From the NCBI GenBank assembly GCA_030696435.1, contig JAUYSF010000228.1, positions 1 through 11,024 of the forward strand: a stretch of DNA of 11,024 nucleotides. Reading direction: 5' to 3'. Position 1 is the first letter of the stretch. Each line of letters opens with the position of its first letter. This DNA is from Desulfoprunum sp. (GTDB taxonomy: Bacteria > Desulfobacterota > Desulfobulbia > Desulfobulbales > Desulfocapsaceae). Shown here piece after piece: positions 1 to 10,273 of the stretch. Made by a program: the position numbers and the translations under genes. The notes beneath the pieces were generated by a model that saw nothing but the letters and a program-made list of their open reading frames with translations, was not told the DNA's origin and ran no database searches.

Positions 1-287
1 CGATGCATGTAGTGGTGGGCACCAGTCTCTTCCAAATTCTCTTCACCTGTGTCAATGTCACCATCATGCAGGCTACCCAGAATCATACCGTCGATTTCGT
101 CCTGGCCCTGCTCCTCTTGATCGGTTCTTCCCTTGGTGCCCAGATAGGAGTAAAGGTCGGCAAAAAACTGGGCGGCGAGCAGCTGAAAATCCTGCTTGCC
201 TCACTCGTCCTCATCGTCATGTTCAAGATGCTCTACGATCTACTGGTCCGGCCGGACATTCTGCTGGCCTATATGGGAGGACACTGA
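1..287 (+). CDS. TSUP (TauE/SafE) family membrane transporter, C-terminal part
   Basis: Partial gene: the reading frame is open from the first base of the window, so the start lies upstream, and it ends in TGA at 285-287. The visible 95 or so residues are very hydrophobic, with three likely membrane helices (about residues 4-24, 29-48 and 61-82 counted from the Met at base 3). The second helix contains GSSLGAQIGVKVG, the small-residue pattern seen in the C-terminal half of TSUP transporters. That family moves sulfite, sulfonates or other small organic or inorganic anions across the inner membrane; the substrate cannot be told here. The next gene starts one base after the stop, so the two are almost certainly co-transcribed. 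The family call rests on the C-terminal half only. Confidence 0.8.
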   Translation, partial: MHVVVGTSLFQILFTCVNVTIMQATQNHTVDFVLALLLLIGSSLGAQIGVKVGKKLGGEQLKILLASLVLIVMFKMLYDLLVRPDILLAYMGGH

Positions 288-288
288 A

Positions 289-1059
289 ATGAAGATTCAT
301 CGCTTACACACCCTTTTGCTCTCATTGTTTCTGGGAGTCCTCGTTCTCCCCTGTCTGGCTCTGGCCGACGGGACCGGCGGTCTTGCCACCACACCGGAAC
401 ATATCCTGATGGGCGCCCAGTATGATGGCCTCAACCTGAAGGTGAATGGCACTGTGCCCGCCGGCAGCGACGTCATTCTGCGTTTCACCGGCGCAGCAGA
501 GGAGCTGCACCTGCGGGAAAAGGGCAAGGTTTTCGGCCTGCTGTGGATGAACGTCGGCAAAGTCAGCTTGAAAAATGTACCCAAGGCCTGTCTCATCGAC
601 TCTTCCCGCCCGCTTGACGAACTCGGCACAGTTGCAGTGCCCTTCCGCCTGGAAGGCCTGCGCGATGCCATCGAGATTGGCGAAGAAGCCGGCACTGGCA
701 CTGTCGATATAGCCCACGAACTGCTGCTCTTAAAAAAAGACCAAGGCCTCTACAACGAAACAGCCAAGGGCGTGACCCTGGGTGCTGATCAGGGACCAAG
801 CCGGACCTTTTCAGCCGAGCTGCCGATTCCATCAGCCCTCGCCCCCGGTGACTACCAGGTCGAGGCTGTCGCCATCAAGGATGGCGCGGTGGTCGGCAGA
901 TACGCCACTGCCGTGAAGGCCGAGTTGACCGGTTTTCCTCGCTGGCTCAGCAAACTGGCCTTTGAAAGAAGTCTGCTGTACGGCGTACTGGCCACCCTCA
1001 TTGCCATTTTCAGCGGCCTGGCAATCGGTCTGGTATTTCAGAGCAAGGGGGCCCACTAA
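289..1059 (+). CDS. TIGR02186-like exported protein with C-terminal membrane anchor
   Basis: A 256-aa protein. The ATG at 289 is chosen because GGGAGG (275-280) lies 8 nt upstream and because it gives a clear signal peptide: a basic start, a hydrophobic run of about residues 8-25, and a cleavage-like ALA-D at 24-27. A frame-extended start at 196 would lie inside the transporter gene and destroy the signal. One transmembrane helix (about 228-250) is near the C-terminus, so the bulk of the protein should face the periplasm. The segment VFGLLWMNVGKVSLKNVP (81-98) followed by SSRPL matches my memory of the TIGR02186/Alph_Pro_TM family (GLW.N....VP....S.RPL), whose members are often next to TSUP transporters. 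The function is unknown; a periplasmic partner of the transporter is inferred from the 1-nt spacing. Confidence 0.75.
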   Translation: MKIHRLHTLLLSLFLGVLVLPCLALADGTGGLATTPEHILMGAQYDGLNLKVNGTVPAGSDVILRFTGAAEELHLREKGKVFGLLWMNVGKVSLKNVPKACLIDSSRPLDELGTVAVPFRLEGLRDAIEIGEEAGTGTVDIAHELLLLKKDQGLYNETAKGVTLGADQGPSRTFSAELPIPSALAPGDYQVEAVAIKDGAVVGRYATAVKAELTGFPRWLSKLAFERSLLYGVLATLIAIFSGLAIGLVFQSKGAH

Positions 1060-1071
1060 GCGGGTGTCTCT

Positions 1072-3639
1072 ATGTATCGACTGTTGAAAAACCTGCTCAC
1101 CTTCCGGCGTCCCGCCAGGCATGTGCTGCCCTTTTCGGTGCTCTTTAAAAAATTTCAGAGCATCCTGGAGAGAAATAACCAGATCCTGGAGGTCATTGCC
1201 GATATGGGTGACAAACTGGGGGGCGAGTATGTTTTCGACCGGCACTATATTGAGGAGGCAACGGAGAAGCTTGAAGACCTGGTCTTCAAGCTCATTTCCG
1301 ATCTCAGCATCCTCAACCAGCATAAAAACACCGAGTTGTTTCTGGCCTGCGAACACATTCGCCAGGAAGTCCAGAAGGAACTTTCCGGCAAGCATGTCCT
1401 CAATACGGGCAAGTTTGTCATACCGCTCAGTGAACTCGGCCATGAATTGAAAGAGCAGGCTGGTTATAAAATGGCCAATCTCGGCGATATATTTAATCGC
1501 CTAGCCTTATCGACACCTGATGGTTTTGTCATAACATCCCGCACTTTCCTCGAATTCATGCAGCACAACGACCTGCTGGCCAAAGCGGAACTGGCCATGG
1601 GATATTGGCAGACTCAGGATCTTGCCGCCCTGAAGACCCTTGCCGACGAGATGCAGAAGCGAATTTTTGCGGCCTCTTTGCCGCGTAGTCTGACTTCCCA
1701 AATATTCGACGAATTTGATCGCCTGGCCGAGCGAATGCAGCGGCGTGATATTACGGTAGCCTTGCGGAGCAGCGCCTCGGGCGAAGATGGCGCCAGCAGC
1801 TTTGCCGGCCAGTACGAAACCGCGCTCAATGTCTCGCGCAGCCAGCTTCTCGACGGCTATCGCCGGGTAGTTGCCAGCGCCTACACCTTCAAGGCCTGGC
1901 AGTATCGTCTCGATCGAGGCTATCATGAACATGAAACAACCATGGCGGTTGGCTGTCAGATTATGGCTGAAGGTCGGGTCAGCGGCGTCCTGCATACCTA
2001 CGCCCCGCACCTGGCCGAAGGGGTGATGATCGCCAACGCGGTATGGGGCCTCTGTTCTCCCGTAGTGCGGGGCGAGAAGTCGACCGACACCATTGTCCTC
2101 GATCGCACCCCGCCGTACACCCTGCGTTCTCTCTCCGTGGTCGATAAAGCCCAGCGTCTGGTACTCGCCTCGGGCGGTGGCACGAAATGGGAAGACACCC
2201 CGGCAGAATTGCACGATGCCCCAAGCCTGACACCGGAGCAGATGCATATCCTTGCCAAGGCGGCAATGAGCATCGAGCGCTATTACAAACGCCCTCTGGA
2301 AATAGAATGGACCTTTGACCTGCAGGACCGCTTGCAGGTTCTGCAGGCCCGCCCCCTGCGTTACTGGAGCGCTCCCTCCCCCTCGGAAGAACAAATAGGC
2401 GAGGCCACCCGGAACGCTGAGATTGTTTTTGCCGGTAAAGGCTTTGTCGCCCAGTGCGGTGTAGCCATAGGCGAGATTTTTCTGGTCCAAAACGATGCGG
2501 ACCTGGAGGCCTTCCCCCATGGCGCGATTATGCTGGCCCGCCACACCTCACCACGCTATGCCTGCATTATGCCCAAGGCCCGGGGGATTATCACCGATGT
2601 CGGTTCTCCGACCGGCCACATGTCGACGCTGGCCCGCGAATACCGGGTACCGACCATCGTCAATACCGAAGTGGCGACCAGCCTGCTGCGCACCGGTGAC
2701 GAAATCACCCTGGATGCCACCCAGAATACGGTGTATCGTGGCCATATCACCGCCCTCGATCGTTTTGAGCTGATCGAGGAGGAGGTCTTTGAAGATTCCT
2801 ACGAATACCGACTGCTGCGCCGGGTACTGAAACATATCAGTCCGCTGAATCTGCTCAATCCCCAAAGTGACGACTTTGTCGCGGCCTCCTGTCAAACCTG
2901 CCACGACATCACCCGTTACATTCACGAAAAAGCGGTTGAACAGCTCATTCATCTCAGCGAAAAGCAGGAAGCGCAGTATCTCTCGGCACCAAAGCGCCTG
3001 ATGGCCGATATCCCGCTCGGTCTTCTGGTTATTGATGCGGGCGGTGGCACGAATTGTTCACCGGATGCCCGCACTCTCACCCCGGATCAGATTATTTCCC
3101 TGCCGCTGCGTGAACTCCTTGAAGGCATGATTGGATTGGGAATGTGGTGCACCGAGCCTGTTTCTGTTGATTTGGGGAGTTTCATGGCCAGCCTGACCCG
3201 CACTTTTTCCTCCTCCATGTCCAGCCCCAGAGAGGTCGGCCGGAACCTGGCCGTGGTCCTGCCCGATTACCTGAACATCAACCTGCGCCTCGGCTACCAC
3301 TTTACGATAATTGATGCCTATATCTCGGCAGAAATGAACGACAACTACATCTATTTCCGCTTTCTCGGCGGGGTGACCGAATTAATCCGCCGCTCCCGGC
3401 GGGCAACCTTCATTGCCAGGGTATTGGCGCATTTTGATTTTCGAGTGGAAATACATGGAGATCTTGTGGTAGGCAGACTGAAGAAACTTTCTTTGCCCCG
3501 TATGTCCGAGAGGATGTGCATGCTTGGTGGGCTGGTCGGCTACACCCGCCAACTTGATGCCCGTATGCACTCGGACAAGGATGTGGCCAGCCATGCAGAG
3601 ATATTTATCAACGCCATGAACAGCGTTATCGGAGGGTAA
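1072..3639 (+). CDS. PEP-synthase-like protein A: ATP-grasp + phosphohistidine domain + unknown C-terminal domain
   Basis: An 855-aa protein starting 12 nt after the previous stop, with only a weak ribosome site. Order of regions: a helical, charged N-terminal region (about 20-110, including NNQILEVIADMG); an ATP-grasp of the PEP synthase/PPDK type (about 115-430) with GYK at 131-133, RSSASGED at 232-239, SFAGQ at 243-247, E412 and QARPL at 425-429; and a swivelling domain (about 450-560) with TGH, putative phospho-His516, in SPTGHMSTLARE. The residues expected to bind ATP (Lys133, Arg232, Glu412, Gln425, Arg427) are all present, so ATP use is likely. The PEP/pyruvate TIM barrel of true PEP synthase is absent. 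Residues 575-855 form a different domain, shared with proteins B and C, with conserved CQTCHDI..Y.HE (607-619), DAGGGT (655-660), DYLNINLRLGYHF (732-744) and YFRFLGG (761-767). It therefore should not be called ppsA. The phosphate acceptor is unknown. Confidence 0.85.
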   Translation: MYRLLKNLLTFRRPARHVLPFSVLFKKFQSILERNNQILEVIADMGDKLGGEYVFDRHYIEEATEKLEDLVFKLISDLSILNQHKNTELFLACEHIRQEVQKELSGKHVLNTGKFVIPLSELGHELKEQAGYKMANLGDIFNRLALSTPDGFVITSRTFLEFMQHNDLLAKAELAMGYWQTQDLAALKTLADEMQKRIFAASLPRSLTSQIFDEFDRLAERMQRRDITVALRSSASGEDGASSFAGQYETALNVSRSQLLDGYRRVVASAYTFKAWQYRLDRGYHEHETTMAVGCQIMAEGRVSGVLHTYAPHLAEGVMIANAVWGLCSPVVRGEKSTDTIVLDRTPPYTLRSLSVVDKAQRLVLASGGGTKWEDTPAELHDAPSLTPEQMHILAKAAMSIERYYKRPLEIEWTFDLQDRLQVLQARPLRYWSAPSPSEEQIGEATRNAEIVFAGKGFVAQCGVAIGEIFLVQNDADLEAFPHGAIMLARHTSPRYACIMPKARGIITDVGSPTGHMSTLAREYRVPTIVNTEVATSLLRTGDEITLDATQNTVYRGHITALDRFELIEEEVFEDSYEYRLLRRVLKHISPLNLLNPQSDDFVAASCQTCHDITRYIHEKAVEQLIHLSEKQEAQYLSAPKRLMADIPLGLLVIDAGGGTNCSPDARTLTPDQIISLPLRELLEGMIGLGMWCTEPVSVDLGSFMASLTRTFSSSMSSPREVGRNLAVVLPDYLNINLRLGYHFTIIDAYISAEMNDNYIYFRFLGGVTELIRRSRRATFIARVLAHFDFRVEIHGDLVVGRLKKLSLPRMSERMCMLGGLVGYTRQLDARMHSDKDVASHAEIFINAMNSVIGG

Positions 3640-3640
3640 G

Positions 3641-4048
3641 ATGACAACAGAAACACGCTCGGCAGGGCCCCGGCCCCGCATCCTCATTCTCGACGATGAA
3701 CCAATTGTCTGCAAACGGCTGAAACCGACCTTTCAGAAGATGGGCTACGAGGTCGAAACCTTCACCGACAGCGCTTCCGCCCTGGCCAGGCTGCGAGAGA
3801 CAACCTTCAACATCGTCATCACCGACCTGAAGATGGAGGGGGCCGATGGCATGCAGGTGCTGATGGGCGCCAAGGAATCATCGGCCGATACCCATGTCAT
3901 TGTCATCACCGGTTTTGCAACGCTTGATACCGCCAAGGAATCGTACCGCAAAGGTGCCTTCGATTTCGTCGCCAAACCCTTTAAGCTCGGCGACATCGTC
4001 GATTGCGTGAAGCGGATTGAGGAAAAACAGCGGGGAAGCGGGCTGTGA
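3641..4048 (+). CDS. stand-alone CheY-like response regulator (receiver domain only)
   Basis: A 135-aa single-domain receiver. The ATG at 3641 follows GGAGG (3631-3635), which lies inside the last codons of gene A; one base separates that stop from this start, so translation is probably coupled. The receiver core is complete: acidic pair D18-D19 in ILILDDE, phospho-acceptor D62 in ITDLKM, T90 in VITGFAT, and K112 in VAKPF. The sequence resembles receivers of NtrC-type regulators, but there is no AAA+ or DNA-binding output domain; the protein ends after about 10 residues beyond the last receiver helix. Output must be through protein contact, most plausibly with the PEP-synthase-like proteins on either side (inferred from position). 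No histidine kinase is visible in the window. Confidence 0.93.
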   Translation: MTTETRSAGPRPRILILDDEPIVCKRLKPTFQKMGYEVETFTDSASALARLRETTFNIVITDLKMEGADGMQVLMGAKESSADTHVIVITGFATLDTAKESYRKGAFDFVAKPFKLGDIVDCVKRIEEKQRGSGL

Positions 4049-4095
4049 TCCGGCTGCACACCCATCAATTCAGTCGATAACCCCGCGGAGCGAGC

Positions 4096-6789
4096 ATGTG
4101 GTGGCAACGACTCATCGGCCGGAAGCATCCTCAGCGGAGAGATATCGCCGAAATCAATATCTGGCGCCTGCAGTCTCTTTTCAACAATTTTAGACGGATA
4201 CTGTTCTTAAACAATGCCGTGTTGGAAGATATGGCCCGGATGGAACAGGCCCTGGGCGGCGAATATATCTTCGACAAGGCCTTCATGGAGACAGCGGTTC
4301 GCACCCTCTCCTCGCGGGTGCACCATGTCGCCTACAACCTCAATGCCCTGACCGGTAACGGCTACATCCCCCTTTACGACCGTTATCAGGATATCCGGAT
4401 CATCCTCGACGATATCCTCGCGGGCAGTATCCGCTCCCTCACCGGCGCCCCGGTTCTGCCCCTGCAAGCCGTTGGCTGGGAACTCGAACCCCTGGTCGGC
4501 ATCAATCTGGTCTGCCTGGCCGAATTACGGCATCATCCGGGCTGCCGGGTGGCCGACGGATTCATCATCACCACCGAGGGTGTCCAGTCCTTGATCAGGC
4601 CGATCCTCCCTGTCGGCGAGGCAGAACGGGCCGATGCCTCTGCAACCGAGATACGGGCCGGCATCGAGGAACAGCTCAAGATGTTGCTCGGCGACCGGCA
4701 GACTATGCGCTTTTCGGTAGCGATCACCAGGATTGAGGGTGAGGCTGAACTGATTAACGAACTCGGCAGATTCGCCCTGGTGCCGGACCCGGATGGATCT
4801 GCAGTGAAGATTATCCCGGAATCTTCGTTCTGTGGAGAAGACTCCGAGTCTGCAACGGAATCCCTGCTGAAGATCATCTCAGCTTCGCCATCTCCCGTTG
4901 ATTCTCCCGTAAGTCCCTATGTACTCTGCCTGGAACAGATTATCCGCACCGTCTGTGCCAACTTGGAACAGGGCGGGAAAGAACCGGTCGGCCAACTCTC
5001 GGTCTTTGTCAGAAGTTGTCCGCCGGCCATCATCTCCGGAATCATACATACCCGAGCGGCGTCCTCCGGTTCCCTGGAAGGTCTACGCATTACCGCCAAC
5101 CTGCCCGACGCCAATGATGCCGGTGATACCTTCCTGCTGCGCCGGACCTATCCCTTCGACCTTATCCAATCGACCATCACGCCGCGCCCTGCCGGATATC
5201 GTTTCCCCGACGGCCGACTGGCAACGGGTGAAGCAGCGGCAATCAGTGGTTTCATGCGGGGCTCAGCCCTTATCGACAGCAAGATGCTGAAGAGGTTGGC
5301 CGAAACAGCAATGACCCTGGAACGGATGATGGGGTCGCCCGTGGCCGTGCACTGGGAGTGTCGCGAGGAGGCCACCTGTTGTATCACCGGCCTTACGCCC
5401 ATGCCGGTCATCCTTGCAGAAATTTCCGATGATGACCTGGCTCGTGAGCAGGAGGAGGCCGAGATCCTCTGCCGAACCGGTCAGATGGTGCAATCGGGTA
5501 TTGCTGCAGGCAGGGTTGTCCATGTGACAGATGAGATGCGACCCGCAGATTTTCCCGCCGGTGCAGTGGCGGTGGCCAGAACCGCCTCGCCGCAATTGAC
5601 TCCTGTTCTGCAGCGGGCAGCCGCCATAATCACCGAATACGGCACAACAACGGGCCACCTGGCCACCGTAGCCAGGGAACTGCGACTGCCGGCAATCTTC
5701 GGCCTGCCCGACGCGCTCACCTTGCTGCCGCAAGGCTCTGAGGTAACGGTGGATGCCAGCGAGACGACCATCTATCGGGGTATTCTCGAAATGTTGCTGC
5801 GACACGGTGCCAGAGAAATGGATCTGACCCCAGCCGATCCGGAATACAGAACCTTGCGGCGTTTGTTGCGCTTTATCATGCCGCTCAACCTGATCGACCC
5901 GGAAGCACCGAATTTTTCACCCCATGGCTGCCGGACCTTCCATGATATCATTCACTTCTGCCATGAAAAAGCAGTTGACGAACTGGCCCATTTTCAGGAG
6001 CGGCGGCCAGGGCTGGGTGCCATCCGCACCCGGCGCATGAACCTTGGCGTGCCAATGGATATTCGGGTCCTCGATATTGGCGGCGGGATGACAAAGAGTA
6101 CCACCATCGAACCCGGTCCCGGCGAGGTGCGATCCGCGCCCCTTGCGGTCTTTCTCGAAGGTCTGCTCGATCCCAAAGCCTGGGCCACGGAGCTCCCAAC
6201 GTTGGCATTCAGAGATATTATTTCCAGCGTGCCCCGCAGCATGGGCATGCTCTCCGCCCCTCTCGACAGTCTCGGGGAAAACCTGGCCATTGTCAGTCAT
6301 GATTACATGAATATCAGCCTGCGACTTGGCTACCATTTCAGCGTCATCGATGCCCATCTAGGTGTTGATGACAGTCGCGACTACGTCTATTTCCGTTTTG
6401 CTGGCGGCCTCGCCGACCCTGAACGCCGCGGACGGCGCGCACAATTCATCAGCAAGGTTCTTGATGCCATGGAATTCAAGGTATCAGTGAAGGGTGACCT
6501 GGTCATCGGCAGACTCAAATTGGTCGACACCGCCGCACTCCAGGCAGCGATTGGGATTCTCGGGGCACTGACCGCCTTTTCCCGGCAGCGGGATACCGGC
6601 CTGTACAGTGATGCCGATACTAGAGCCCTGTTTACGATCTTTGCAGATACTTTTCTCACAGATTATACCGGGACAACCTCGCCTGCCATTGATCGGCACA
6701 CTCCAAACCTTGGCCAGACAGGAAATTCCGGCCAAGCTGGAGCGCCCGACAACGCCTACTCTGCCACCATAATCGGTGCCGAAAAATGA
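4096..6789 (+). CDS. PEP-synthase-like protein B: degenerate ATP-grasp, intact phosphohistidine domain, unknown C-terminal domain
   Basis: An 897-aa paralogue of A. GGAG (4087-4090) precedes the ATG at 4096. The N-terminal helical region keeps the A-like segment LGGEYIFD (53-60). In the ATP-grasp part the expected ligands are missing: the GxK lysine is Asn137 (VGIN), the RSS arginine aligns with Thr211, the EIEW glutamate is His419 (VAVHW), and QARP reads GLTP (432-435). SFAGQ is absent. By contrast the swivelling domain is well preserved, with TTTGHLATVARE (517-528) and putative phospho-His521. The shared C-terminal domain is also intact: CRTFHDI..F.HEKAV (612-627), DIGGGM (660-665), DYMNISLRLGYHF (736-748), YFRFAGG (765-771). 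A polar tail of about 40 residues follows. B probably does not hydrolyse ATP itself; it may accept phosphate from A or C or act as a regulatory subunit. Hand alignment only. Confidence 0.82.
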   Translation: MWWQRLIGRKHPQRRDIAEINIWRLQSLFNNFRRILFLNNAVLEDMARMEQALGGEYIFDKAFMETAVRTLSSRVHHVAYNLNALTGNGYIPLYDRYQDIRIILDDILAGSIRSLTGAPVLPLQAVGWELEPLVGINLVCLAELRHHPGCRVADGFIITTEGVQSLIRPILPVGEAERADASATEIRAGIEEQLKMLLGDRQTMRFSVAITRIEGEAELINELGRFALVPDPDGSAVKIIPESSFCGEDSESATESLLKIISASPSPVDSPVSPYVLCLEQIIRTVCANLEQGGKEPVGQLSVFVRSCPPAIISGIIHTRAASSGSLEGLRITANLPDANDAGDTFLLRRTYPFDLIQSTITPRPAGYRFPDGRLATGEAAAISGFMRGSALIDSKMLKRLAETAMTLERMMGSPVAVHWECREEATCCITGLTPMPVILAEISDDDLAREQEEAEILCRTGQMVQSGIAAGRVVHVTDEMRPADFPAGAVAVARTASPQLTPVLQRAAAIITEYGTTTGHLATVARELRLPAIFGLPDALTLLPQGSEVTVDASETTIYRGILEMLLRHGAREMDLTPADPEYRTLRRLLRFIMPLNLIDPEAPNFSPHGCRTFHDIIHFCHEKAVDELAHFQERRPGLGAIRTRRMNLGVPMDIRVLDIGGGMTKSTTIEPGPGEVRSAPLAVFLEGLLDPKAWATELPTLAFRDIISSVPRSMGMLSAPLDSLGENLAIVSHDYMNISLRLGYHFSVIDAHLGVDDSRDYVYFRFAGGLADPERRGRRAQFISKVLDAMEFKVSVKGDLVIGRLKLVDTAALQAAIGILGALTAFSRQRDTGLYSDADTRALFTIFADTFLTDYTGTTSPAIDRHTPNLGQTGNSGQAGAPDNAYSATIIGAEK

Positions 6790-9590
6790 ATATCCTCAGT
6801 CGCCTGATCGATTCGTTTAGTGCTCGCAGCCAGATTCGCGAGCACGAGGCCCTGGAAGAATTAAAGGCTCGTTACCATGCCTTTCGGATATTTCTCGAAA
6901 ATAACGGTCGGGCACTGGAACTGCTGGTCAGTATCGACGGACTGCTCAATCGCGGCGAAGAAACGGCTATTCGGACTGCAACGGAAGAACTGTTGAGCGT
7001 CACCGCCGAACTGGTCGATGGCCTGAACCTGCTCTCCGGCGATGCCCATGCCGGACTCTATGCGCTGCATGGCCAACTGGCAGCGGATGTCGTGCAACAT
7101 CTCGATATCCTCTCGGACAATCCAGGCCAGCAGGCCTACTGCATAGCCCTGGATGACCTGGGGCCGGGGGCCCATCTCCTGGCTGGAACCAAGGCTGCCA
7201 ATCTGGCCCGTCTGCGACGGATGGCCCTGCCGGTTCCGAACGGATTCGTCTGCACGACCATGGCCTGCAAACACTTTATCGGCGAAGGGCAATTGGCAGC
7301 CGGAATTCGCCGGATTTTGCGAGAATACGAATATCAGCACCAGGATGTTAACCAGGCGGCAGTGCACATCGAGGAGTTGATCCTGGCAACACCCTTGCCG
7401 CCCGATATTGCCCTGGCCCTGGAAGAGGCCTATCGGCACCTTGCAATGAGCGAGAAACAAACCGGCGCCACCAACGGGCCTCTGATGGCTATTTCGGTAC
7501 GCAGCAGTGGCGTGTCGGAAGACGGGGCCGATCATTCCTTCGCCGGTCAGTTCACCTCCATACTCAATGTAATCGGCCTCCAGTCCCTGTTCGATGCCTA
7601 TCGGGTTGTAGTGGCCAGCGGCTTCAGCCCCCGCGCCATCTCCTACCGGCTCAATGCCGGCCTGACACCTGTTGATTTTGACTTTGCGGTATTGTGTCAG
7701 GTCATGGCCAAGGCCGATTGCGCCGGTGTCCTGTTCACCCGCGATCCCTCGCAACCAGAGAACGGCCGTATGCTGATCAGCGCCGTACCCGGCCTGGGAA
7801 CGATGGCAGTGGAGGGTTCTGCGGCGGTGGATCTGTATCGCCCCCGGCGTGCCGAGCGTGTCGATGATGCATCTCCGGAGTGTCTGCCCGGCCTCTTTGA
7901 AGGCAAGCAAAACATCAGCCAGGCCCGAGCTGCGGAACTACTGGACGGTGCCGAGATTTCCCGAAAAACTCTGCGCGAAGTACCATCCCCCGAAGGCGGT
8001 CTACAGCAGGAACAGCTTCCGGCGGCAGAGGCGGATCTGCCCCTGCTGTCGGTTGAGATCTTGGAGCAATTGATGTGCTTTGGTGAGATGATCGAGAACC
8101 TGGAAGGCGTCGGCCAGGATGTGGAATGGGCCTACGCTAGAGAGAGTGGTGTGGCTATTCTGCAAGCGCGCCCCTTGCGTTTAGCCGCCGGCAAGGGCCG
8201 CCGGCTGCGGCTGCCGGCAGCCGCAGAGCCGTTGGTATCCGGAGCCTGTGCCGCAGCCGGCAGGGCAGTCGGCAGGGTGCATATTATACATTCAACAGCG
8301 GACCTGCAGCAGTTCTCCAAGCCCCGGGCCGGTGCACTAAGCTCCGCTCCGTGCATCCTGGTGCTGCCGCAGAGTATCGTCGATGCCGCCCCTCTGCTCA
8401 AGAATTGCGCCGGGGTTGTTATCGAAGTCGGCAATCCCACCGATCATCTATCCTGTATCGCCCGAGAATATGGCGTGCCGATGATTACCGGAGCCCAGGC
8501 CGCCTTGTCGCGCCTGCATGACGGCCAATGGGTCATCATCGACGCCGACCAGGGGATGGTCGTCGATGCCCCCAAATCGATCAGAGCCGCCGTTGCCCAG
8601 GCCCACTCGGAACAGGTGCAAAGAAAGGCGCAATCCCAGACAGATCACTCTCCGCCCACGTCACTGCGACACACCGTCATTCCGCCGGAGCGGCAGGCCT
8701 TGCGACAGATGATTGTGCCGCTCAACCTGACCGATGCCTACGGTCCGTCATTTTCCCGGATGGACTGCCGGTCGATCCACGATATCATCCGCTATACCCA
8801 TGAAATGGCGGTACTCTCCATGTTTGACGCCGGCGATACGATCATGGAAGACGCCGGCGATCTGCTGCGGCCACTCGATATCGGTGTGCCCTTCTCATTT
8901 CTGGTGATAGACGTCGGCGGTGGCACACGCCGGGTAGAGAAGACCTCATTTCGCAAGAAACTGAGCCTGCAAAATCCCCTTAGCAGAGAAGATGTCCTCT
9001 CCATTCCACTGGCCGCCCTCTGTGACGGACTGACTACGCCGGGGCTGAACTGGCATTCCGGTCCGGACATTGATGCCCTGCCCGGCATCTTTTCCCGGTC
9101 ACTGCTGGACACCCGGACAACCCGCCCGGCCGGATCATTCAACTACGCCCTGGCAGCCCGTGATTACCTCAACCTCAACGCCCGAGTCGAGTTCCACTTT
9201 GCCATGCTCGATGCCGTGTGCGGCAGAGACTCTCATGCCAACTATATCCGTTTCCGGTTCAAGGGTGGCGGTGCCGGGTCCGAACGTGGTCACCGGCGGG
9301 CAATATTTCTCAAACATGTCCTGGAAGGCAATGGATTTTACACAACGGTGGCAGGCGATCTGGTTACCGCTTCGCTGACAGGTGCCGGCAAAGAGGTCAT
9401 CTCGGAACGGCTGGTGATGCTTGGCCGACTGCTTGGTTTCAGCAGGTTTCTCGACGGGGTGATGACTACCGACGAGACTCCTGTGCAGTTGGCCCAGGCC
9501 TTTCTCGCGGGCCGCTTTGACACCCGGGTTACCAGAGAATCTACAGAAGAACAGGAAATGCAGGAGACGATCAATCGTTTTCAGGCATGA
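6786..9590 (+). CDS. PEP-synthase-like protein C: ATP-grasp + phosphohistidine domain + unknown C-terminal domain
   Basis: A 934-aa paralogue of A and B. Its ATG overlaps the stop of B in ATGA (6786-6789), so translation is likely coupled. The ATP-grasp is the most canonical of the three: GTKAANLARL (134-143), RSSGVSEDG (239-247), SFAGQ (251-255), Glu447 in DVEW, and QARPL (460-464), all consistent with ATP binding. The swivelling domain has NPTDHLSCIAREYGVP (550-565) with putative phospho-His554; the residue before the histidine is Asp, where A and B have Gly. The shared C-terminal domain follows from about 635: CRSIHDIIRYTHEMAV (661-676), DVGGGT (709-714), DYLNLNARVEFHF (793-805), RFRFKGG (822-828). 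There is no TIM barrel. The N-terminal helical region is more diverged and lacks the LGGEY segment. The 3' end overlaps the convergent phosphatase gene by 10 nt. The reaction and acceptor are unknown. Confidence 0.85.
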   Translation: MNILSRLIDSFSARSQIREHEALEELKARYHAFRIFLENNGRALELLVSIDGLLNRGEETAIRTATEELLSVTAELVDGLNLLSGDAHAGLYALHGQLAADVVQHLDILSDNPGQQAYCIALDDLGPGAHLLAGTKAANLARLRRMALPVPNGFVCTTMACKHFIGEGQLAAGIRRILREYEYQHQDVNQAAVHIEELILATPLPPDIALALEEAYRHLAMSEKQTGATNGPLMAISVRSSGVSEDGADHSFAGQFTSILNVIGLQSLFDAYRVVVASGFSPRAISYRLNAGLTPVDFDFAVLCQVMAKADCAGVLFTRDPSQPENGRMLISAVPGLGTMAVEGSAAVDLYRPRRAERVDDASPECLPGLFEGKQNISQARAAELLDGAEISRKTLREVPSPEGGLQQEQLPAAEADLPLLSVEILEQLMCFGEMIENLEGVGQDVEWAYARESGVAILQARPLRLAAGKGRRLRLPAAAEPLVSGACAAAGRAVGRVHIIHSTADLQQFSKPRAGALSSAPCILVLPQSIVDAAPLLKNCAGVVIEVGNPTDHLSCIAREYGVPMITGAQAALSRLHDGQWVIIDADQGMVVDAPKSIRAAVAQAHSEQVQRKAQSQTDHSPPTSLRHTVIPPERQALRQMIVPLNLTDAYGPSFSRMDCRSIHDIIRYTHEMAVLSMFDAGDTIMEDAGDLLRPLDIGVPFSFLVIDVGGGTRRVEKTSFRKKLSLQNPLSREDVLSIPLAALCDGLTTPGLNWHSGPDIDALPGIFSRSLLDTRTTRPAGSFNYALAARDYLNLNARVEFHFAMLDAVCGRDSHANYIRFRFKGGGAGSERGHRRAIFLKHVLEGNGFYTTVAGDLVTASLTGAGKEVISERLVMLGRLLGFSRFLDGVMTTDETPVQLAQAFLAGRFDTRVTRESTEEQEMQETINRFQA
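6820..6845 (+). repeat. inverted repeat (8-bp arms) near the start of gene C
   Basis: GTGCTCGC (6820-6827) and GCGAGCAC (6838-6845) are perfect reverse complements around a 10-nt loop. In the transcript this is a GC-rich stem beginning 34 nt after the A of the gene C start codon, within codons 12-20. No T-run follows, so it is not an intrinsic terminator. It might slow early elongation or mark an RNA cleavage or protection site, or it may be chance in GC-rich coding DNA. Confidence 0.5.
8205..8226. repeat. 22-bp perfect palindrome inside gene C
   Basis: The half-site CTGCGGCTGCC (8205-8215) is followed directly by its exact reverse complement (8216-8226), with no spacer. It encodes part of the Pro/Ala-rich stretch LPAAAEP at residues 476-482, the likely linker between the ATP-grasp and histidine domains, where protein sequence constraint is low. 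No function can be assigned from sequence alone. Confidence 0.7.
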
Positions 9591-10273
9591 TAAAACTGTA
9601 TTGCCGGCAACTCCACGGCCGTGAGGACATTGCCGTAGACTGCCCCGGTGTCAATGCCGATACGGTCGGCCATAACCAGCGGGGCCTCGAAAGGCAGGTG
9701 CCCGAAGACCACAGTATAGCCGGTGTCGGCGATGCTTTCCAGGCCGAGTCGCCTGCTGGCCAGAAGACCTGCTTCGATGGATCGCTGGGCCTGAAGGGCA
9801 TCAGGGCGGGCTTTCGCCAGAGCGAGCTTCTCTTCGTCGATATCGGCATGGGTGAAGAGATAGCCGCCGGCGACATAGGAAAACTCCAAGGCATGAAGAA
9901 ATTCCCGGTGCTCAGGCGGGAGACAGGCAAGATCCCGAAGCTGGCGTGTTGAGGCGCCATAACTTGTCAGCGTAGCCTCCACCCCCATGGTGCGCAACAT
10001 AGGGAGGATTTCCACATCGCCTGTTTCGGCATATTCCAACAACGCCTGTTCATGATTTCCCATGAGAAAAACCACATGGTTATATGTTGCCTTGATTTCC
10101 AGCAGGGTATCCAGCACCTTCCTGGAATCCGGGCCCCGATTGATATAGTCTCCCATAAAAACGAGCGTATCAGTACTTTTATCGATAGGGATGCGATCTA
10201 GAAGAGTGATAAGCTTGTCATGACAACCGTGAATATCGCCGATAGCAAAGATCTTTTGTTCTGATAAAGTCAT
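9581..10273 (-). CDS. PPP-family serine/threonine protein phosphatase (metallophosphoesterase)
   Basis: A 230-aa protein with the full set of PPP-type metal-site motifs: GDIHG (12-16), GDYINRGPDS (41-50), GNHE (72-75), His142 in FTHAD, and GH (191-192) followed by DTG (208-210). Members of this family use two metal ions to remove phosphate from proteins (PrpA/PrpB-like) or from small molecules; the substrate here is open. The second motif has Asn45 where GDxxDRG is more usual, a variation also tolerated in relatives. The ATG at 10271-10273 is preceded on the minus strand by AAGAAGG (10289-10283) with 9-nt spacing. The gene runs convergently to the PEP-synthase-like cluster and its last 10 nt overlap gene C, so there is no room for a terminator between them. 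Confidence 0.88.
   Translation of the reverse strand: MTLSEQKIFAIGDIHGCHDKLITLLDRIPIDKSTDTLVFMGDYINRGPDSRKVLDTLLEIKATYNHVVFLMGNHEQALLEYAETGDVEILPMLRTMGVEATLTSYGASTRQLRDLACLPPEHREFLHALEFSYVAGGYLFTHADIDEEKLALAKARPDALQAQRSIEAGLLASRRLGLESIADTGYTVVFGHLPFEAPLVMADRIGIDTGAVYGNVLTAVELPAIQFYHA

Follow-up and report, generated by a model that had tools for sequence, protein, structure and literature searches.

Three tandem genes encode full-length paralogues, here called A, B and C, which represent a variant of the PEP-synthase superfamily that is real, widespread and apparently undescribed. The variant carries a domain of no recognised family at its C-terminus and is linked with the transport of anions in sulfate reducers. 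We propose that these proteins may constitute an ATP-driven His-phosphotransfer module controlling a TauE-family anion transporter, an explanation to which, taken as a whole, we assign an even chance. It was derived from the domain assignments, the conservation of residues by clade, the pattern of drift in B, the counts of partner genes, the link with dsrA, and the gene order and genetics of the Desulfovibrio nitrate cluster.

Gene organisation and domain architecture

The analysed window is a whole contig (C403, 11,024 bases) of a 3.8-Mb genome, and its genes lie on the forward strand unless otherwise indicated. It begins with a TauE/SafE-family permease gene of which only the 3' end lies inside the contig (3..287; PF01925, E 1.9e-11), and which is the upstream neighbour in relatives too, followed by the gene of a TIGR02186/Alph_Pro_TM membrane protein (286..1059; PF09608, E 4.2e-41). 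Translation of the open reading frames returned the three proteins listed in the first-pass annotation, A with 855 aa (1072..3639), B with 897 aa (4096..6789) and C with 934 aa (6786..9590). A receiver-only response regulator of 135 aa with Asp62 as acceptor (3641..4048; PF00072, E 6e-26) is encoded between A and B, and a PPP-family metallophosphatase gene of the ApaH/PrpE/PphA-like type (9581..10273, reverse strand; PF00149, E 1.1e-17, and NCBIfam) is convergent to C. Since the stop of A at 3639 is followed by the receiver start at 3641 and the start of C overlaps the end of B by 4 bases, the genes look like a single transcription unit.

The three proteins could be aligned end to end, B and C being 31% and 32% identical to A, and consist of N-terminal helices, an ATP-grasp region, a swivelling phospho-His domain and a C-terminal domain (CTD). 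The N-terminal helical domain (A residues 1-110, window 1072-1401; helices at 21-105 in the model) is conserved and common to A, B and C, and gave no Pfam match. The PPDK_N family matched A (1453..2382, E 6e-69) and C (7179..8180, E 1.9e-62), both with intact catalytic residues in the alignment, while B returned no PPDK_N match at E<=1. The PEP-utilising mobile domain PF00391 was found in A, B and C with E-values of 2.7e-19, 1.8e-18 and 3.4e-15, at residues 481-551 of 855 (2512..2724, with His516 at 2617-2619), 486-556 of 897 and 522-590 of 934, respectively. The first-pass annotation had assigned an ATP-grasp-like region and a swivelling His domain to each protein; this holds for the His domain in all three and for the ATP-grasp of A and C, whereas B retains only an ATP-grasp remnant with its catalytic residues lost.

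The CTD, of about 280 aa, is common to A (residues 575-855; 2794..3636), B (5842..6660) and C (8670..9518), the last two being 39% and 35% identical to the A domain in the alignment. Residues 575-855 of A gave no Pfam or NCBIfam match beyond the swivel domain, and sequence searches of the PDB returned no match for the CTD. None of the three proteins matched PEP-utilizers_C (PF02896) at E<=1; at E<=0.01 this family occurred at one place in the genome, a separate canonical PpsA on contig C388. Profile comparison of the CTD with PEP-utilising barrels by hhalign returned probabilities of 0.2-0.5%, against 99.7% for a barrel-to-barrel positive control, the barrel alignments being small (7 and 5 sequences). 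An AlphaFold model of the CTD built from 86 sequences (pLDDT 86.1, pTM 0.77) showed helices, four strands, a helix, two strands and a helix (E164-168, E172-179, E182-189, E198-204, H, E230-234, E237-243, H), predicting a confident alpha+beta fold that is not a (beta/alpha)8 barrel, and fold searches gave no significant structural match. These results agree with the earlier proposal that A, B and C have no TIM barrel and share instead the same unrecognised domain, whose occurrence in 46 of 58 relatives and in 107 of 297 genomes is far above chance; the fold check made for a diverged TIM barrel did not reveal one. Twelve positions were invariant in the 86 CTDs (F41, H50, P117, G124, H182, G205, G206, R216, F229, D236, G258 and D268 in model numbering; +561 for A), a pattern that would suit an active or binding site. 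A search covering part of the literature returned no published description of the CTD, and we do not claim its absence from print.

Like PEP synthase (PpsA) and PPDK, A and C (not B) possess PPDK_N with its catalytic residues, and all three proteins possess the swivel His; they differ in having no PEP/pyruvate TIM barrel and in carrying the extra N-terminal helices and the unrecognised CTD. Their NCBIfam scores are all below the cut-offs of NF005057 (598; A 283.4, C 227, B 89.8) and TIGR01418 (739.75; A 274.1, C 211.8, B 84.1), as well as that of the rifampin phosphotransferase (RPH) profile NF041857 (999; A 161.8, B 47.2, C 157.8). RPH likewise combines an ATP-grasp and a swivel His with a second domain that is not a barrel (PMC4844700), but its swivel domain is C-terminal, whereas A, B and C have the His domain in the middle and the new domain at the C-terminus. 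Finally, PTS Enzyme I differs in that A, B and C gave no PEP-utilisers_N or PEP barrel match and have an ATP-grasp instead.

Conservation of the ATP-grasp and His domains

A total of 163 CTD proteins were aligned, 11 with identical ends were dropped and the remaining 152 were sorted by a quick tree into C (n=27), B (n=31) and A (n=90), the A class being the remainder and thus defined by exclusion; 4 unplaced sequences are outside these counts. Seven ATP-grasp positions were inspected, whose roles we take to be those assigned in PEP synthase and PPDK work. Lys22 and Arg117 are reported as matching residues of RPH (PMC4844700). All seven residues were kept in 27/27 C proteins, and the A rows with a letter at these positions showed one departure (Gly for R427). 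Only 7 of the 31 B proteins retained the full set, the catalytic residues being lost in the other 24/31 orthologues. The swivel His was kept throughout (A 90/90, B 31/31, C 27/27), and the Arg-Glu following it was present in 31/31 B rows.

In the tree the 7 intact B proteins form one clade and the 24 degenerate ones another (support 95). Mean pairwise identity among the degenerate proteins was 32.8% in the ATP-grasp, 58.7% in the swivel domain and 53.9% in the CTD: the ATP-grasp has drifted, and the swivel domain and the CTD have not. Because its ATP-grasp is degenerate and its His retained, B is likely a His carrier phosphorylated in trans. Its residues would fit a His chain of the HpeHI type with no working ATP-grasp of its own, and the two-component dikinases HpeHI, CreHI and phenylphosphate synthase, in which an ATP-grasp on another chain loads the His protein (PMC12167813), offer a parallel for the loading proposed here. 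They differ from B in the substrate part and the partners, and B retains a degenerate ATP-grasp rather than none. The multi-subunit ATP-driven phosphotransfer machine of the first-pass annotation thus gains support as regards phosphotransfer between subunits; a stable machine is putative, and an A-type gene is often present where B and C are missing.

The gene directly upstream of B encodes a histidine kinase in 6/7 intact-B loci versus 0/24 of the others; since intact and degenerate B proteins are two clades, this difference amounts to little more than one evolutionary event.

Partner genes and distribution among sulfate reducers

The genomic loci of the best 80 of 201 relatives, many of them cut by contig ends, contained 123 CTD reading frames, 119 of which were 777-1121 aa long. 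Three CTD genes were present in 19 of these 80 loci, and the three-gene set, whose recurrence had been suggested as a check, therefore does occur elsewhere. The rule in these loci was the order USP-TauE-TIGR02186-A-receiver, followed by either B-C-phosphatase or USP genes. Where there was room for a neighbour, the TIGR02186 gene was directly upstream of A in 74/82 cases and a receiver gene downstream of A in 86/89 (76 by reading frame and 10 more by tblastn, with 3 lacking it). The acceptor residues D18, D19, D62 and K112 were conserved in 77/77 receiver rows and T90 in 76/77, and the convergent PPP phosphatase was found beside C in 20/26 loci. Among the window reading frames, no histidine kinase gene was found between the receiver and B.

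Some single loci showed further arrangements. The A gene of one relative (G018, L035:5469-7957) is split into two reading frames, B and C being open. DSP-type phosphatase genes are found next to or close to further CTD copies (L160:4177-7712, L155:4992-8855 and L162:2852-10054), so CTD proteins are accompanied by two unrelated phosphatase families, the PPP-type beside C and the DSP-type. A PTS Enzyme I gene occurs upstream of a CTD gene in Desulfobulbus elongatus (L155:2265-7817), with an AIR-synthase-like frame between them, and a receiver-AAA-Lon protease fusion is encoded just past the phosphatase gene of another cluster (L028:13553-15583).

The relationship with sulfate reduction was evaluated in 297 genomes sampled evenly across the phylum, in which dsrA was counted above its cut-off. 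The CTD was present in 107 genomes and dsrA in 143; 102 had both, 5 the CTD only, 41 dsrA only and 149 neither, and the 5 genomes with the CTD only are all <=80% complete. The association gave a Fisher p of 1e-38, a value inflated by shared ancestry, and each of the 38 CTD-bearing families (38/38) includes a genome with both the CTD and dsrA. We assign the module to dissimilatory sulfate reducers; within the phylum it is nearly confined to dsrA genomes. As some 41 dsrA genomes are without the CTD, sulfate or sulfite can be reduced in its absence; the domain is associated with the dsr pathway and not required by it.

The nitrate cluster and a proposed control of anion transport

Two further CTD loci resemble a published gene cluster. 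A locus of Desulfovibrio sp. DV (L160) has the order TauE, hypothetical protein, PtxB-type binding protein, PAS histidine kinase, receiver, CTD protein (822 aa) and DSP phosphatase. A second locus (L204), from the genus of Nitratidesulfovibrio liaohensis, also the genus of D. vulgaris, has TauE, hypothetical protein, kinase, receiver (119 aa), CTD protein and DSP phosphatase, and no PtxB match was detected in it. The first order, and the second except for PtxB, is that of the Desulfovibrio nitrate cluster (DVU0251-DVU0245, Dde_0597-0605; DVU0247 of 360 bp; PMC4001038). By gene order, a CTD paralogue thus appears to sit in the nitrate cluster as DVU0246, which is given as 2235 bp (PMC4001038), shorter than the 822-876 aa frames of the two loci.

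According to the same study, insertions in DVU0251, DVU0250, DVU0247 and DVU0246 made D. vulgaris insensitive to 100 mM nitrate and not to nitrite, pooled data for DVU0250 being in conflict with the isolated mutant (PMC4001038). Insertions in the TauE, receiver and dikinase-like genes all led to nitrate resistance, and the phosphatase mutant DVU0245 was not resistant (PMC4001038). Korte et al. suggested a leaky thiosulfate transporter (PMC4001038), and PMC9723548 takes up this view, naming a putative thiosulfate transporter that has affinity for nitrate. The nitrate cluster shares with our window the TauE, receiver and dikinase-like genes, and the orthologous-looking clusters of the two loci carry the CTD; it differs in that PtxB, the PAS histidine kinase and the DSP phosphatase replace TIGR02186, B, C and the PPP phosphatase. 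In the tree, the CTDs of nitrate-like clusters form a separate clade, the window cluster being a different subtype.

The context of transporter, receiver and phosphatase, which the first-pass annotation did not mention, together with the genetics of the apparent paralogue (PMC4001038), favours transport control over a stand-alone enzyme that acts on a new small-molecule acceptor. Under this explanation the CTD would be a new output domain, either acceptor or regulatory, on the PEP-synthase ATP-grasp and swivelling-His module. A and C would each use ATP to phosphorylate their own His, and one or the other would load the His of B in trans. The phosphoryl group might then be used via the CTD and the co-encoded receiver to gate or energise the TauE-family transporter encoded with them, whose substrate would be a sulfur oxyanion (sulfate, sulfite or thiosulfate), and the neighbouring phosphatase may reset the module. 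Against this explanation, the CTD has no recognised fold from which to argue function, and the genetics come from a paralogous cluster. The shorter published length of DVU0246, the lack of resistance in the DVU0245 mutant, the conflicting DVU0250 data and the dsrA genomes that lack the CTD also count against it. A bolder version, which we rate as rather unlikely, sees an anion phosphotransfer system of sulfate reducers, in which the His carriers loaded by ATP (A and C, with B in trans) would gate or drive the TauE transporter through the CTD fold and the receiver, as a functional counterpart of the sugar PTS that is assembled from parts of PEP synthase and specialised for sulfur oxyanions.

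It is somewhat unlikely that the proteins are instead small-molecule dikinases, whose CTD would bind a metabolite and receive the phosphoryl group, like the rifampin-binding domain of RPH or the aromatic-binding part of HpeH. Relatives known to have lost the TIM barrel are such enzymes (PMC4844700, PMC12167813), and many invariant polar residues of the CTD (H611, H743, R777, D797 and D829 in A numbering) fit a ligand or active site. However, the recurrent partners are receiver, transporter, histidine kinases and phosphatases, not metabolic enzymes, and the TauE, receiver and dikinase-like mutants of the nitrate cluster are reported with one common phenotype (PMC4001038). A direct His-to-Asp relay, in which the phosphoryl group would pass from the swivel His of A to the receiver encoded next to it, A being a new kind of ATP-driven histidine kinase with the CTD as sensor only, is unlikely to a slightly greater degree. 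The frequent receiver-only gene downstream of A, its intact acceptor residues and the missing kinase gene between receiver and B in the window would suit such a relay, but histidine kinases are often near, including those adjacent to intact B, and those directly beside the receiver in nitrate-like clusters may control it. Very improbable is a strongly diverged PEP/pyruvate TIM barrel making the proteins unusual PEP synthases: the CTD does follow the swivel domain, as the barrel does, with a faint local hhalign overlap (CRT...VIDxGGG with RTE...TLDxGGD, 0.5% probability), but the profile comparison, a model not made of eight beta-alpha units, the lack of PF02896, the missed PEP-synthase equivalog cut-offs and the genome's own PpsA stand against it.

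Before they gain any energy, sulfate reducers have to take up sulfate and invest ATP in it, and to our knowledge the gating of sulfate uptake in these organisms is poorly known. In the CTD family, a His-phosphotransfer module that consumes ATP and carries an unrecognised domain is connected with a transporter, a receiver and phosphatases. Control of a TauE-family transporter by this module would also offer a molecular account of the nitrate resistance that sulfate reducers show on loss of the nitrate cluster, which is relevant to souring control.
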